Assembly: GCA_025612245.1 (NCBI GenBank)
Contig: JAAXKQ010000002.1
Location: 248,001 to 312,000, forward strand
DNA from: Ignavibacteria bacterium
GTDB taxonomy: Bacteria; Bacteroidota; Ignavibacteria; Ignavibacteriales; SURF-24
Direction of reading: 5' to 3'
Length of the DNA: 64,000 bases
Shown: positions 19,673 through 25,672 of the stretch, piece after piece
Layout of the letters: each line of letters opens with the position of its first letter
Position numbering within the stretch: the first letter of the stretch is position 1
The notes under the pieces: model-generated
Seen by the model: only the letters and a program-made list of their open reading frames with translations
Databases searched by the model: none
Told to the model about the DNA's origin: nothing
Translations under genes and position numbers: made by a program

Positions 19673-20935
19673 ATGAAATGGTTGCTTTATCTGCTGTCTT
19701 TTTCTGTTTTCTTTATATCGTGCGGTAAGAAAGACAAAAAAGAAGATACGAATAAGGGAAGTTATTGCCTTCAGCTGAAGTCGTTTGGGACGAAGGATAG
19801 TGCGGAAGAATATGTTAGAAAACTGGAAACAAAGACGAACCAGCCCCTTTCTGTAACAGAAATCCCTGGGCAACAGGGGAAAATGCTGTTTCTTGTTAGA
19901 CTCGGAAACTTCCTCTCGTCTTATGAGGCCGGCATGGCTGCTTACAGACTCCTGAATTCAAAAGTTATAGACAATTACTCCGTAACGCGTGACATGAAAA
20001 GCGTTCCGGATGAATTTTCAAGAGTTATAATTGTGGGCAGTTCCAATGGAACGTCCTCACTCTTTGAATATGACCTTAAAACCGGAGAAAAGAAGAAGCT
20101 TTGGACGAGGCAGGGAGAAATTGTAATTGACCTGAGTTACTCTTCCGATATGTCCGGCGCACTTTTTACGACGGTAGGCGGATTCGGCAGAAATAGCATC
20201 TTCCCGTATGTAGATAATGTTAAAGTCTACAGAATTAGTCTTTCTGACCTGAAGGTTTCAAAGTTAAAAAGCCTGGGAAACGGAATTCAGCTTTACACGA
20301 ATAATGACCTGGGAAAGGCTTACAGGATAATAATGAACGTGTTTGACAGGAATAAAAATACGTTCGTAGTGCAGAATACCTATACTTACGACTTTCAGGG
20401 CAGGCTAATCAGCAGTGAAAAGAAGAGTTTTGACCTGGCAAAGGAGAACTACCCTCTTCCGCCCGAGCTGGTTTATGATAACCGCTCTCCTGACAACAAG
20501 AACCGGTTCGATGTTTCACTGAGCAAGGGCTCTTACTCTTTTTCGGTTACAAGGGTGGCTACTTCATCCGGGAAAAATATACTTACTACGGCGCAGAGGC
20601 TTAACCAGGCTGCCTGGTCGCCTGACGGGAGATACCTTATATTTTCAACCCTGGATCTCTCGCCCCGTAACAGGACCTTGCACGGAAGGATGCCGCAGAC
20701 TTCCAAGCTTTACCTTTACTCTGAAAATGACGGTAAAATTATCAAGCAGTGGGATGGCGGCGGCTATAAGAACTTTACCTTAAGAGGCAACCTGCTCTTG
20801 TTTGACGATGACTTTAGTGAAAAATCGCACATTATAGTATACGATTACAGAAATAACAGACTTATTGACACAGTTGCCATTGATGGCGGATGCGGAATAA
20901 GAAATATCCCTTACATACCTGACTTTGGATTATAG
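19673..20935 (+). CDS. SPOR-domain lipoprotein with beta-propeller-like C-terminal part
   Basis: 420 residues. A lipoprotein signal peptide ends in the lipobox FISC with Cys17. Residues about 31-106 resemble a SPOR domain (YCLQLKSFGTKDSAEEYVRKL, FLVRLGNF), which binds denuded peptidoglycan glycan strands. The remainder has TolB/WD40-like strands (AAWSPDGRYLIFSTLD). It is thus an envelope protein linking septal or glycan binding to a propeller. It lies 5 bases after the M50 gene and overlaps the ABC exporter by one base, which places it in the envelope-assembly group. Function beyond binding is not known. Confidence 0.75.
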   Translation: MKWLLYLLSFSVFFISCGKKDKKEDTNKGSYCLQLKSFGTKDSAEEYVRKLETKTNQPLSVTEIPGQQGKMLFLVRLGNFLSSYEAGMAAYRLLNSKVIDNYSVTRDMKSVPDEFSRVIIVGSSNGTSSLFEYDLKTGEKKKLWTRQGEIVIDLSYSSDMSGALFTTVGGFGRNSIFPYVDNVKVYRISLSDLKVSKLKSLGNGIQLYTNNDLGKAYRIIMNVFDRNKNTFVVQNTYTYDFQGRLISSEKKSFDLAKENYPLPPELVYDNRSPDNKNRFDVSLSKGSYSFSVTRVATSSGKNILTTAQRLNQAAWSPDGRYLIFSTLDLSPRNRTLHGRMPQTSKLYLYSENDGKIIKQWDGGGYKNFTLRGNLLLFDDDFSEKSHIIVYDYRNNRLIDTVAIDGGCGIRNIPYIPDFGL

Positions 20936-22791
20936 TGAAAACATATTCAAGAATATTAAATTTTATTAAGCCATACTGGAAGCATCTTTCGGCTTCCATA
21001 TTTTGTACGATCCTGTTTGCCGTGCTTAACGGTGCCTCGGTTTACCTGACAATACCACTTCTGGATACGCTTTTCCAGGAACAGGGAAAGGTTAAGCCGC
21101 AGGAACAAACACAAATGATAGACAAGGCCAACGGGCTACTGCCTCACTGGGTTACAGACGTGAAAGAGGCCGTTTCGCAGGCATTTAACAATTTCATCTT
21201 TTCGGGCAGCAAGACCGAAGCCCTGATGAAGATATGCGTCCTTGTACTCTTTACATTCCTGACAAAAAACATTTTCGGATACCTTCAGGCCTATTACCTG
21301 GCAACTGTGGAACAGGGGCTCATAAAGGATATGCGCGACAGCGCCTACAAGCACCTGCACAAGCTTCCCATGAGCTTCTTCAAAAATGAGAAAACGGGCA
21401 ACCTTATCTCGCGCATTACAAATGACGTTAACGCGGTTCAGGCAAGCGTTTCGGCCGTATTCCTGAACCTCATACGCGAGCCGCTTACGATTCTTGTTTT
21501 CCTTGGCATTGCAATTTCAATCAGCTGGAAACTGATGCTTTTTTCCATTGTGATACTTCCTGTCTCGCTGTTTGTCATCAGCTGGATCGGGCTGATCCTC
21601 CGCAGGCACAGCATACTGCTGCAGGAAAAAATGGCCGACATTACCACGGTTCTGCACGAGACGATTTCGGGCGTTAAGATCGTAAAGGCATTCGGCATGG
21701 AAGAATATGAAAATAAAAAATTCATGAGGCAGACCAAAAGCTACTTTAACCTCTTCCTTAAAATCGTAAGGATAAGAAACGCTTCAAGTCCCATTACAGA
21801 GTTCCTAAGCGTGGTGGTAGGCGTTTTTATTGTTTACTACGGCGGAAAGCTTGTACTGGAAGAAGGTACACTCAAAGCCAGCGAGTTTCTGGGCTTCCTA
21901 TTTTCAATATTCCAGCTCATGCCTCCAATTAAGGAATTAAGCGGCGTCAATAACCGCCTGCAGGAATCGAGTGCTGCAGCAGAAAGGGTTTTTGAGATCC
22001 TGGATACAAAGCCGGGTATTGAAGACAGGCAAGATGCCCTAAGGGTGGACACACTTTCGGAGAAGATCACCTTCCAGAATCTCTCATTCCACTACGAGGA
22101 TTCAGAACAGCTGGTCCTAAATGATCTCTGCTTTACCATAAATAAGGGCGAGATTGTTGCACTCGTAGGAAGCAGCGGCTCGGGCAAAACGACGCTGGTG
22201 GACCTGCTGCCCAGGTTTTACGACCCAACTTCCGGCAGTATACTCATTGACGGCATAGACATTAAAGACATTAAAATTGAAAGCCTCAGGAGCATGATGG
22301 GCATTGTGACACAGGAGACCGTTCTTTTTAATGACACGATTAGAAATAACATTGCCTATGGTCTGGATAACTATCCGATGGATAAGATAATTAAGGCGGC
22401 AAAGGCTGCCAATGCGCACGACTTTATCATGCAGTTCCCGCATGGATACGATACAGTTGTAGGCGAAAGAGGGGCAAAGATATCGGGAGGGCAGCGTCAA
22501 AGGATTTCAATTGCCAGGGCGCTGCTTGTAAACCCTCCGATCATGATTTTTGACGAAGCTACTTCGGCTCTTGACAACGAAAGTGAAGTCCTGGTGCAGG
22601 AAGCCATCGAAAGGCTCATGAAGGAAAGAACCACCGTTGTAATTGCACACAGGCTTAGTACAATAAGAAACGCAGACAAGATACTGGTGCTCGAAAAGGG
22701 GCGCATTATTCAGCAGGGAAGGCACGAGGAGCTGATGGAAAGCAGCAAGAGCGTTTACAGGAAACTTTATGAACTTCAATTCCGGGATTAA
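20935..22791 (+). CDS. ABC exporter, permease fused to ATPase (MsbA-like)
   Basis: 618 residues. An ABC type-1 transmembrane domain with six helices fills residues 1-320, including the coupling segment HKLPMSFFKNEKTGNLISRITNDV. The nucleotide-binding domain has Walker A GSSGSGKTT, Q-loop VTQETVLFND, signature ISGGQRQR, Walker B IMIFDEATSALD and H-loop IAHRLST. Half-transporters of this class work as homodimers and flip lipids such as lipid A core. The GTG start overlaps the preceding stop as TAGTG. The neighbouring O-antigen ligase and glycosyltransferase support a lipid-linked glycan substrate. Confidence 0.9.
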   Translation: MKTYSRILNFIKPYWKHLSASIFCTILFAVLNGASVYLTIPLLDTLFQEQGKVKPQEQTQMIDKANGLLPHWVTDVKEAVSQAFNNFIFSGSKTEALMKICVLVLFTFLTKNIFGYLQAYYLATVEQGLIKDMRDSAYKHLHKLPMSFFKNEKTGNLISRITNDVNAVQASVSAVFLNLIREPLTILVFLGIAISISWKLMLFSIVILPVSLFVISWIGLILRRHSILLQEKMADITTVLHETISGVKIVKAFGMEEYENKKFMRQTKSYFNLFLKIVRIRNASSPITEFLSVVVGVFIVYYGGKLVLEEGTLKASEFLGFLFSIFQLMPPIKELSGVNNRLQESSAAAERVFEILDTKPGIEDRQDALRVDTLSEKITFQNLSFHYEDSEQLVLNDLCFTINKGEIVALVGSSGSGKTTLVDLLPRFYDPTSGSILIDGIDIKDIKIESLRSMMGIVTQETVLFNDTIRNNIAYGLDNYPMDKIIKAAKAANAHDFIMQFPHGYDTVVGERGAKISGGQRQRISIARALLVNPPIMIFDEATSALDNESEVLVQEAIERLMKERTTVVIAHRLSTIRNADKILVLEKGRIIQQGRHEELMESSKSVYRKLYELQFRD

Positions 22792-22793
22792 AC

Positions 22794-24890
22794 ATGGAAA
22801 ATAAGAACTCAGTTATAAGGGTGCTGGATAAGGTTATTTTTGCCTGTGCTATACTGTTCCTGGTGAGCACTAACAATTCAATTTTTGTAAACCAGCTCGG
22901 CTATTACGGTGCGCTCCTGTGCATACTAATAGAATACTTCCTGAGGAAAAATAAATTTAAGAGGACGGGGCTTGAGGAGGCATTTGTTCTTTTTATACTT
23001 ATTGAAATAGTGACGGCTTTCTTTTCCTTTAATGAACGCCAGGCTTTCAATAATGTCCTGAGAAGATTCCTTCTCATACCCACAGTCTATACAATTATTG
23101 CCGCAGCGGATGACTTCAAGAAGGTAAAGCTTTTCTTTAAGGTTTACCTCGGGGCCGCTTTCGTTACAATTACATTTTATCTCGCATTTGCAGCCAGGTA
23201 TTTTCTTGCACATCTTTATACTGTGCAGGGAAAAGGGCCTTCGCTTTTTCAGTACGTTATGACTGCAGGCGGGCTTATCAGTTTTACTACGGTATTCTTT
23301 TTTGCTTTTCTTGTAAATGAAAAGAAAAGCCTTAAGATCAGGGCATTTTACGGGGCAGGATTCCTGCTCTCGCTAATTGCACTTGTTGCAAGTGACACGC
23401 GTGCTGCATGGATAGGAACTGCGGGAGCCATATTCCTGATACTCATTGTGAAAAGGAAGTGGCTGGTTCTTGCGCCCTTGGCCGTAGCTGCATTTGTCGT
23501 TATCGTTTTCCAGAATAACAAAAGCATACTGCACGTTTATTCAACTGATAAAGGCAGCATGGTAAAACAAAAGGATATAGCAACCGAAGGCAGGGCTATG
23601 ATATCCTGTTATGAAGGCAACAAGCTCTTTGTAAGCGATTATGACAACGGGATACTGGAATTTAACGGCCTTTTACTCTCGGACAGGGTGCCGACACCTT
23701 TCCCTGTTGTTGGAATTACACAGTGGAAAGACAGCTTCTATGTAGCAAGGCTACTCGATAACAGAATGTTCTTACTTGAGGAAGTTAAGGGGAAACTGAA
23801 ATTTAGAAAAGAGTTCATTTCACCGGGCCTCCTCTGGGATATTGTTCCGGTTAACGGCAGACTTTATATTGCCGACCAAGACAGCGGGCTTACGGTGCTT
23901 TCGGATCCGGAAAACCTGTCAAAAAGAAGCCGGTTTCCTGAAATCAATAAAATTAAAAGGATTACGGCGGACTCATTGCACCTGGCTATTTTTGACGACA
24001 ATGACTGCCTTTCAGTCTACAAGCTTAATGACGGGCTTCCTTCAGAAAAAATCTTCAGCCGGAGTTATAAAACGGCCTATGGCTTTATGCAGTTCATCGG
24101 AAGCAACTTATTTTTTATTGACGATAACGAGCTGAGGCTCTTCCACACGGGAGCGGATAATGTGACTCTGGTTGATTCAAATAAATCCCTGAAGGCCCTG
24201 TGGATGTACAGCCTGTCCGGTCAGAGGCTTTTTGCCTCGGACTATAACGGGAATCTTTATGAACTTGCTTATCCTGTTAACGACAAGCTTACGGTTAAAA
24301 GCGTAAATAAGCTGCCTTATGTTCCGGCCTCTATTGCCCTTTTGGACGGGAAAGTCTATACTTCCGAAGTAAAACGCAGCCGCGTGGGCAGTATTGTTGA
24401 CCCTTACCATCCCTCCAACGTTGAAAGGCTAAATCTCTGGAAGGCGGGTTACAAGATTATCAAGGAGCATCCTGCCTTTGGCGTAGGCGACATAGACATG
24501 CAGAACGTCTACAAGATCTATAGAAAGTACTACGACAAGGAGACATACGGGCACTTCCACAATAATTATGTCCATTTCCTCGTAGCACTCGGTATTCCGG
24601 GATTTCTTATAGTAATGTTTCTGATCGTACGAATACTGATGACGCACGTTAAAATCTATAAAGCACTGAAGACGGTTGAGTATGCTTCCTCGTATGCCCT
24701 TGGTGCAATGGCTTCTTTTATTGGATTCCTGATTTCAGGACTTGCCGAATGGAATTTCGGCGATCACGAAATTATTACAATGGTCTGGTTTACACTGGGA
24801 CTCAATCTGGCTTTTTACTATACTTATAAAGCAAAAGACCTGAAGGCGGAAACTACGGAAGCCGAAGAAATTGTTCATAACCTGAAATAA
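22794..24890 (+). CDS. O-antigen ligase/polymerase-family membrane protein with inserted beta-propeller
   Basis: 698 residues, far above the usual 400-450. Residues 1-240 hold about nine transmembrane helices with the family segment ASDTRAAWIG (199-208). Residues about 258-538 are a soluble stretch of repeated short strands, such as GNKLFVSDYDNGILEF, NGRLYIADQDSGLTVL and GQRLFASDYNGNLYEL, spaced like blades of a beta-propeller. The ligase sequence then resumes with SNVERLNLWKAGYKIIKEHP, FGVG and HFHNNYVHFLVALG (541-600), the catalytic periplasmic loop with Arg545 and the histidine cluster, and final helices. It is probably a Wzy- or WaaL-type enzyme for envelope glycans. Confidence 0.82.
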   Translation: MENKNSVIRVLDKVIFACAILFLVSTNNSIFVNQLGYYGALLCILIEYFLRKNKFKRTGLEEAFVLFILIEIVTAFFSFNERQAFNNVLRRFLLIPTVYTIIAAADDFKKVKLFFKVYLGAAFVTITFYLAFAARYFLAHLYTVQGKGPSLFQYVMTAGGLISFTTVFFFAFLVNEKKSLKIRAFYGAGFLLSLIALVASDTRAAWIGTAGAIFLILIVKRKWLVLAPLAVAAFVVIVFQNNKSILHVYSTDKGSMVKQKDIATEGRAMISCYEGNKLFVSDYDNGILEFNGLLLSDRVPTPFPVVGITQWKDSFYVARLLDNRMFLLEEVKGKLKFRKEFISPGLLWDIVPVNGRLYIADQDSGLTVLSDPENLSKRSRFPEINKIKRITADSLHLAIFDDNDCLSVYKLNDGLPSEKIFSRSYKTAYGFMQFIGSNLFFIDDNELRLFHTGADNVTLVDSNKSLKALWMYSLSGQRLFASDYNGNLYELAYPVNDKLTVKSVNKLPYVPASIALLDGKVYTSEVKRSRVGSIVDPYHPSNVERLNLWKAGYKIIKEHPAFGVGDIDMQNVYKIYRKYYDKETYGHFHNNYVHFLVALGIPGFLIVMFLIVRILMTHVKIYKALKTVEYASSYALGAMASFIGFLISGLAEWNFGDHEIITMVWFTLGLNLAFYYTYKAKDLKAETTEAEEIVHNLK

Positions 24891-24901
24891 TTTTAATATT
24901 C

Positions 24902-25672
24902 ATGATAAAGATATCTTCAATCATCCTTGCAAAGGATGAAGAAAATAACATTGCACGATGTATCGACAGCCAGCAAGGCAGTATTGACGAGATACTTGTA
25001 TTTGTTGATAGCAGGACGACGGATAACACGGTTAACATACTCAAGAGCAAGGGTGTAAGCTATGAAGTATGCACGTGGCAGGGTTATGCCAAGACAAAAC
25101 AATATGCCCTCTCAAAAGCTTCAAATGAATGGATATTGTGGATTGACGCTGATGAGGCCCTGACGCCTGAACTTAAGAGTGAGATAATTGAATTTAAGGC
25201 AAGTCAGCCCGTATATAATGTTTATTCCATTCCGCGCAAAGCAAATTTTCTCGGGAAGTGGATCATGCATAGCGGCTGGTACCCGGGTCGGGTGGAAAGA
25301 CTCTTTAATAAAAATCACGCGCACTTCAGCAACAAGGATGTTCATGAGCACCTGGTTTTTGAAGGGCAGACGGGTAAATTAAATCACGACCTGGAACATT
25401 ATACGGATCCTTCAATAAAGCATTATTTCGACAAATTTAACGTTTATACAAGCCTTGCAGCCGAAGAGCTTTTCAGGAAGAACAGGACCGCATCTGTAAA
25501 GGATATTCTTCTAAGGCCGCCATTTCTGTTCTTCAAGATGTATATAATGAAGCGGGGTTTCTTAGACGGACTGATGGGGTTTATGCTTGCCGTTTTTTCG
25601 TCTCTATATGTTTTTACAAAGTATTCGAAGCTCTGGGAGCTGGAGCATTCCAGAGTGCCTGAAGGAAAATAA
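24902..25672 (+). CDS. Glycosyltransferase family 2 (WaaE/KdtX-like)
   Basis: 256 residues. The GT2 core begins ISSIILAKDEENNIARCIDS, with the nucleotide-binding region VDSRTTDNTV and the metal-binding WILWIDADEALTPEL (DxD type). The segment GKWIMHSGWYPGRVERLFNK and DVHEHL is shared with WaaE/KdtX lipooligosaccharide glucosyltransferases. A C-terminal hydrophobic segment may anchor it to the inner membrane. It lies 11 bases after the O-antigen ligase-like gene and closes the glycan operon before a bidirectional terminator. Confidence 0.88.
   Translation: MIKISSIILAKDEENNIARCIDSQQGSIDEILVFVDSRTTDNTVNILKSKGVSYEVCTWQGYAKTKQYALSKASNEWILWIDADEALTPELKSEIIEFKASQPVYNVYSIPRKANFLGKWIMHSGWYPGRVERLFNKNHAHFSNKDVHEHLVFEGQTGKLNHDLEHYTDPSIKHYFDKFNVYTSLAAEELFRKNRTASVKDILLRPPFLFFKMYIMKRGFLDGLMGFMLAVFSSLYVFTKYSKLWELEHSRVPEGK

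Follow-up and report, generated by a model that had tools for sequence, protein, structure and literature searches.

A 698-aa protein of an Ignavibacteria bacterium, encoded in the window (the whole analysed stretch of 64,000 nt from contig JAAXKQ010000002.1), carries a complete beta-propeller domain in the working loop of an O-antigen-ligase-family enzyme, and this arrangement is genuine and conserved in Ignavibacteriales (Table 1). Pfam analysis revealed Wzy_C (PF04932) as the sole family in the protein (E-value, 9.9 × 10−23; 81 bits against a cut-off of 31.7); the match consists of two stretches, one on each side of the insert, and PF04932 was matched in all 40 family members. Comparison with NCBIfam gave no confident name, as the best match, to the IctB family, reached 46.5 of the 366.4 bits required. 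The junction is sharp: short forms of the protein read TM9...FAPxxQxxRAxSIVDPYHPSN..RLNMW, whereas in the window protein the propeller separates the end of TM9 from the same RVGSIVDPYHPSNVERLNLW. An earlier note on this DNA had placed the propeller at 23,565–24,407, between ASDTRAAWIG (residues 199–208) and SNVERLNLWKAG (residues 541–552). The insert is indeed there, but that span begins about 48 nt and ends about 30 nt too late. The three blade motifs listed in the note, VSDYDNGILEF (280–290), IADQDSGLTVL (359–369) and ASDYNGNLYEL (481–491), are present and form, in the predicted model, hairpins of strands B and C in blades 1, 3 and 6.

Table 1. Positions, in the window, of the propeller-bearing ligase gene, its parts and its neighbours.
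Feature	Position	Strand	Basis
SPOR lipoprotein	19673..20935	+	Pfam SPOR; upstream of propeller and propeller-less ligases alike
MsbA-like lipid A flippase, directly upstream	20935..22791	+	Best NCBIfam match MsbA_lipidA, 553.9 bits, under the cut-off of 602; adjoins in most related loci
O-antigen-ligase-family membrane protein with inserted beta-propeller, 698 aa	22794..24890	+	ORF; Pfam Wzy_C; PDB profile match to WaaL 7tpg
N-terminal membrane half, residues 1–241, TM1–TM9 in the model	22794..23516	+	AlphaFold2 helices up to residue 238; mean column conservation 0.57
R203, putative counterpart of the first functional Arg of WaaL	23400..23402	+	Matched by position only, no alignment to 7tpg; R in 38/40
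Predicted seven-bladed beta-propeller insert, residues ~242–528 (~287 residues)	23517..24377	+	AlphaFold2 strands 243–527; VIA Z 23–24 (251–527); LVIVD in 11/40; orthologues without insert at the same junction
Conserved face of blades 1–3: loops 264–267, 283–285, 300–304, 321–324, 342–346, 362–364	23583..23894	+	Per-loop conservation
Remainder of the catalytic loop and TM10–TM12, residues 529–698	24378..24887	+	AlphaFold2 model; mean column conservation 0.64
R545, on R265 of 7tpg	24426..24428	+	HMMER alignment; invariant in 40/40
HN-x9-G-xx-G motif with putative catalytic H589	24558..24602	+	H, N and both G invariant in 40/40
GT2 glycosyltransferase, directly downstream	24902..25672	+	Pfam PF00535; adjoins in many related loci

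A fold prediction from the single sequence was useless (pLDDT 41), and therefore an AlphaFold2 model built on the alignment of the 40 family members was used (mean pLDDT, 89.6; pTM, 0.85). The model contains 28 strands (residues 243–527) between helices 223–238 and 540–558; after the strands come helices 530–534, 540–558 and 569–576, and then three long terminal helices. Six full four-stranded blades are flanked by an N-terminal strand pair (243–252 and 255–263) and a C-terminal one (513–517 and 520–527), and this order of 2 + 6 × 4 + 2 suggests that the two pairs together make up a seventh blade and close the ring. VIA-align superposed about 265 residues (251–527) on many seven-bladed propellers, including WD40, YncE and lactonases, at 2.7–3.0 Å (Z, 23–24). 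A Pfam LVIVD repeat (PF08309) was detected at E ≤ 1 in 11 of the 40 members (best E-value, 7.1 × 10−12); at this threshold it was absent from the window protein itself. With the insert profile, weak matches were obtained in the PDB to propellers that include YncE-family proteins and PQQ-type repeats. LVIVD-like repeats are most regular (e.g., LLLTEGENGISIVDISDASNP) in the inserts of three related members (L063, L065 and L067), which are perhaps nearer to the ancestral propeller form. A search for insert paralogues elsewhere in the genome yielded none at E ≤ 0.01. Thus, the fold that the earlier note had read from blade-like repeats is predicted with high confidence between two helices, and its proposed site, the periplasmic catalytic loop, also agrees with the model, in which the insert stands between TM9 and the loop arginine on the predicted periplasmic side.

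The search of related genomes for the same fusion recovered it from dozens of Ignavibacteriales. The full-length insert is present in 34 of 59 relatives, and the 40 insert-bearing members (the others being 28–44% identical to the window protein) align end to end; the insert is thus not a chance feature. Scanning of named genomes yielded 70 loci, almost all of which carry the label of Ignavibacteria, Melioribacter, Ignavibacteriales or unspecified Bacteroidetes MAGs. The proteins fall into two size classes, of about 685–705 aa with the insert and about 390–440 aa without it; in BLAST comparisons with the short class, residues ~51–231 and ~528–690 of the query align and the insert is skipped. 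The 395 genomes searched within the phylum gave 25 full-length matches, all of them in the order of the window, Ignavibacteriales; the other 15 matches, from other orders of the same class, lie outside the insert only, the insert being absent as judged by open-frame length (G062 and G274 were read directly). In other orders of the class, ligases without the propeller hold the same slot in the order MsbA-ligase-GT2. A 662-aa open frame of G062 was considered as a second large-insert form and rejected, since the gene codes for an insertless ligase of 448 aa. In trees of the core alone, the insert-bearing proteins are found on one side of a single branch once distant paralogues are left out; the support of this branch is low (16), and the pattern is consistent with a single gain of the insert. 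The root was not trusted because rooting with the genome's own paralogues gave branches of 8–10 changes per site.

In Ignavibacteriales genomes that lack a propeller-bearing ligase, the ORF after MsbA often encodes a divergent ligase-like protein of about 380–420 aa without a propeller. This was found in about 10 genomes (G004, G028, G020, G009, G008, G050, G037, G038 and G040, plus a split one in G033), and these ORFs make up a tree group of their own with full support. The slot next to MsbA is thus held by either of two ligase lineages, indicating that the basic role of the slot does not require the propeller. In the fetched loci, a search with the insert profile detected no detached propeller gene beside insertless ligases. 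Several loci deserve separate mention. The slot ORF of L122, L123, L125, L126, L129, L131 and L136–L138 carries an HN(D/V)...ESG motif, and a lineage swap at one locus is possible. No ligase-like ORF directly follows MsbA in L127, L128, L130, L132, L133 and L124, where the ligase may be absent or located elsewhere; in G041, a ligase-like ORF is found on another contig (L134). The short ligase ORF beside MsbA in G033 (L135:3038-4233) is read in two frames (285 and 115 aa) owing to a frameshift or a sequencing error, and the ligase frame of a Melioribacter roseus MAG (L097:4856-5598) is broken into two overlapping frames, possibly by sequencing error.

The insert and the core differ in their rates of change. 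Mean conservation across the 40 members is 0.37 in the insert and 0.57 and 0.64 in the flanking parts of the core. In comparison with a relative of the same genus, the insert is 51% and the core 80–82% identical, with dN of 0.44 and 0.12–0.13, respectively; no dN/dS ratio is claimed, as dS is saturated. Judged by these divergences, the propeller is evolving several times faster than the core, which fits a ligand-facing module but also weak constraint. Conservation within the propeller is uneven: the D-A and B-C side loops score 0.54–0.76 in blades 1–3 and 0.21–0.41 in blades 4–7, and the contrast of this face with the A-B and C-D loops gave p = 0.027 in a single exploratory permutation test. 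With the ring closed as suggested above, attachment of the ligase at the B-C position of blade 7 would place the conserved face on the side of the ligase. The conserved loops of blades 1–3 could, on the other hand, be structural turns.

The best solved relative of the family profile in the PDB is the WaaL structure 7tpg/7tpj (E-value, 8.1 × 10−6). R545, H587, H589, N590, G600 and G603 are invariant in the 40 members. In Escherichia coli WaaL, R215, R288 and H338 are functional residues (PMC3643930). The AlphaFold2 helices are compatible with 12 TM segments and a long TM9–TM10 loop, and the modelled propeller is located at the start of the active-site-bearing loop, between R203 and R545. Based on these data, the protein may be pictured as a WaaL-type O-antigen ligase, an inverting enzyme of GT-C fold with 12 TM helices, whose large periplasmic loop acquired a complete seven-bladed propeller at a site bounded by the end of TM9 and R545. 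In the core, R203 and R545 would hold the pyrophosphate of the undecaprenyl-PP-glycan, and H589 would activate the lipid A-core acceptor supplied by the neighbouring MsbA. If the first two and the last two strands complete one blade, the ends of the propeller come to lie side by side, so that the domain could be attached to the loop and leave the core undisturbed. The propeller would most likely be an accessory recognition head above the mouth of the active site, where it would bind either the acceptor or the incoming glycan and thereby tune the choice of the ligated chains or the efficiency of ligation. We give this reading of a WaaL-type ligase with an in-loop recognition head about even chances; recognition of a glycan or an acceptor by the propeller is plausible as a hypothesis only. 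A bolder version, in which a lineage-specific in-loop propeller equipped the ligase with a glycan- or partner-reading head of its own, through which ligation is gated at the periplasmic mouth, is offered tentatively and is rather doubtful. If true, such gating would be a type of regulation without a described precedent among O-antigen ligases.

The main rival to glycan or acceptor recognition is that the propeller serves as a protein-docking scaffold for a partner from the export path (MsbA, the Lpt bridge, a Wzz-type regulator or an envelope lipoprotein), which we consider unlikely, if worth keeping in mind. Propellers are often platforms for protein interactions, the top Foldseek matches of the model are chains of BamB, a periplasmic partner-binding propeller, the gene lies directly behind that of MsbA, and the one-sided conservation of blades 1–3 would also suit a fixed partner. 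However, evolution of the insert at a much higher rate than the core is less expected with a fixed partner, and the candidate lipoprotein, the SPOR protein encoded upstream of MsbA, is not exclusive to propeller loci. This lipoprotein shows weak TolB/PD40 similarity in its C-terminal part of about 320 residues, and the gene order PgpH-XerD-(M50)-SPOR-MsbA is kept in many relatives. The TolB signals of the SPOR family are below threshold (E-value of 0.092 against the PDB; 18 of 343 bits in NCBIfam), and based on them the protein may contain a propeller-like part. The suggestion that it shares a glycan-binding theme with the insert is not supported, since hhalign detected no relation between the SPOR family and the insert family (probability, 1.6%) and the SPOR gene also precedes propeller-less ligases.

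It is distinctly unlikely that the core is another PF04932 enzyme, be it a polymerase of the Wzy type or a protein O-oligosaccharyltransferase resembling PglL or TfpM, whose propeller would select a protein acceptor. WaaL and PglL are inseparable by simple sequence comparison (PMC3643930), and a propeller-less orthologue gave weak matches to TfpM and PEP_O_lig, which leaves some room for this reading. Against it, PglL_A (PF15864) had no match in the window protein at E ≤ 1, nor does it appear in the list of 25 families obtained for the 40 members, and the role of polymerase probably falls to the genome's other two Wzy_C genes (C27 and C31), which are located within 6–8 kb of Wzz matches. The genome encodes LpxC, a Kdo-transferase family member and four Wzz-family matches, none of the latter being on the contig of the window. 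The order MsbA-ligase-GT2 is common to both size classes, and a distant propeller-less orthologue (L105) is found beside MsbA and two genes matching LPS heptosyltransferases. Thus, the MsbA-ligase-GT2 context, the heptosyltransferase-like neighbours, the LPS genes, the position of Wzz beside the other Wzy_C genes and the unmatched PglL_A favour a WaaL-type ligase, and the enzyme probably joins long sugar chains to an outer-membrane lipid. Of the earlier designation as an O-antigen ligase/polymerase, the family assignment is borne out by the Wzy_C and WaaL profile matches, whereas the polymerase part is disfavoured by gene context.

The possibility that the propeller is a near-neutral passenger, which entered a permissive loop once and persists with no particular function, appears very improbable. 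The low conservation of the insert and the propeller-less forms that occupy the same slot in relatives would agree with it, but the full fold is retained at near-constant length (286–303 aa, with a slightly wider cut) in 40 divergent members, the polar positions D282, D322, R324, D361 and D363 are kept in 88–93% of them, and no decayed insert was seen in any insert-bearing lineage. Finally, assembly or merging of two genes, which the earlier note had named as a possible source of the segment, has a negligible chance of being the explanation and is refuted by recurrence, as the same fusion with the same junctions is found in many independent genomes, including single-contig G006, G024 and G026 and the isolate Stygiobacter electus (L059), and the gene is one open frame with even GC along its whole length.

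Donor and acceptor choice by WaaL-type ligases and the coupling of ligation to export are poorly understood. A natural insertion at the active-site loop, together with propeller-less ligases in the same slot, offers a ready comparison for what this loop region controls. Both the fold and the ligase family are known; no description of an O-antigen ligase or Wzy_C protein fused to a beta-propeller was found in the open-licence literature, and the profile search for the fusion covered the phylum of the window. Seven-bladed propellers of the LVIVD, YncE and WD40 types have the same fold as the insert, but they are separate soluble or surface proteins, and we know of no case inside a polytopic glycan ligase. 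WaaL (CAZy GT121; 7tpg/7tpj) shares with the window protein the PF04932 core, the loop arginine and the HN-x9-G-xx-G motif, and its 12 TM helices with a long periplasmic TM9–TM10 loop are compatible with the helices predicted for the window protein; however, known WaaL proteins are of about 400 aa and have no extra folded domain in the loop that here accommodates about 287 residues. With this fusion, an accessory module of well-defined structure is added to a family of membrane glycosyltransferases, in which the only other example of a fused domain that we met is the bifunctional ligase WadA of Brucella (PMC9938171). Like the window protein, WadA is an O-antigen ligase with an additional domain, but that domain is an N-terminal cytoplasmic glycosyltransferase, whereas the present one is internal, predicted to be periplasmic and of no known enzyme type. 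PorZ is likewise an envelope protein with seven-bladed propellers that works on LPS; it differs in being a stand-alone protein of the cell surface that has two propellers and a CTD, and no homology to the insert is claimed. As PorZ binds the A-LPS glycan (PMC8545088), it may serve, by analogy only, as a precedent for a propeller protein that binds a glycan in a related envelope setting.
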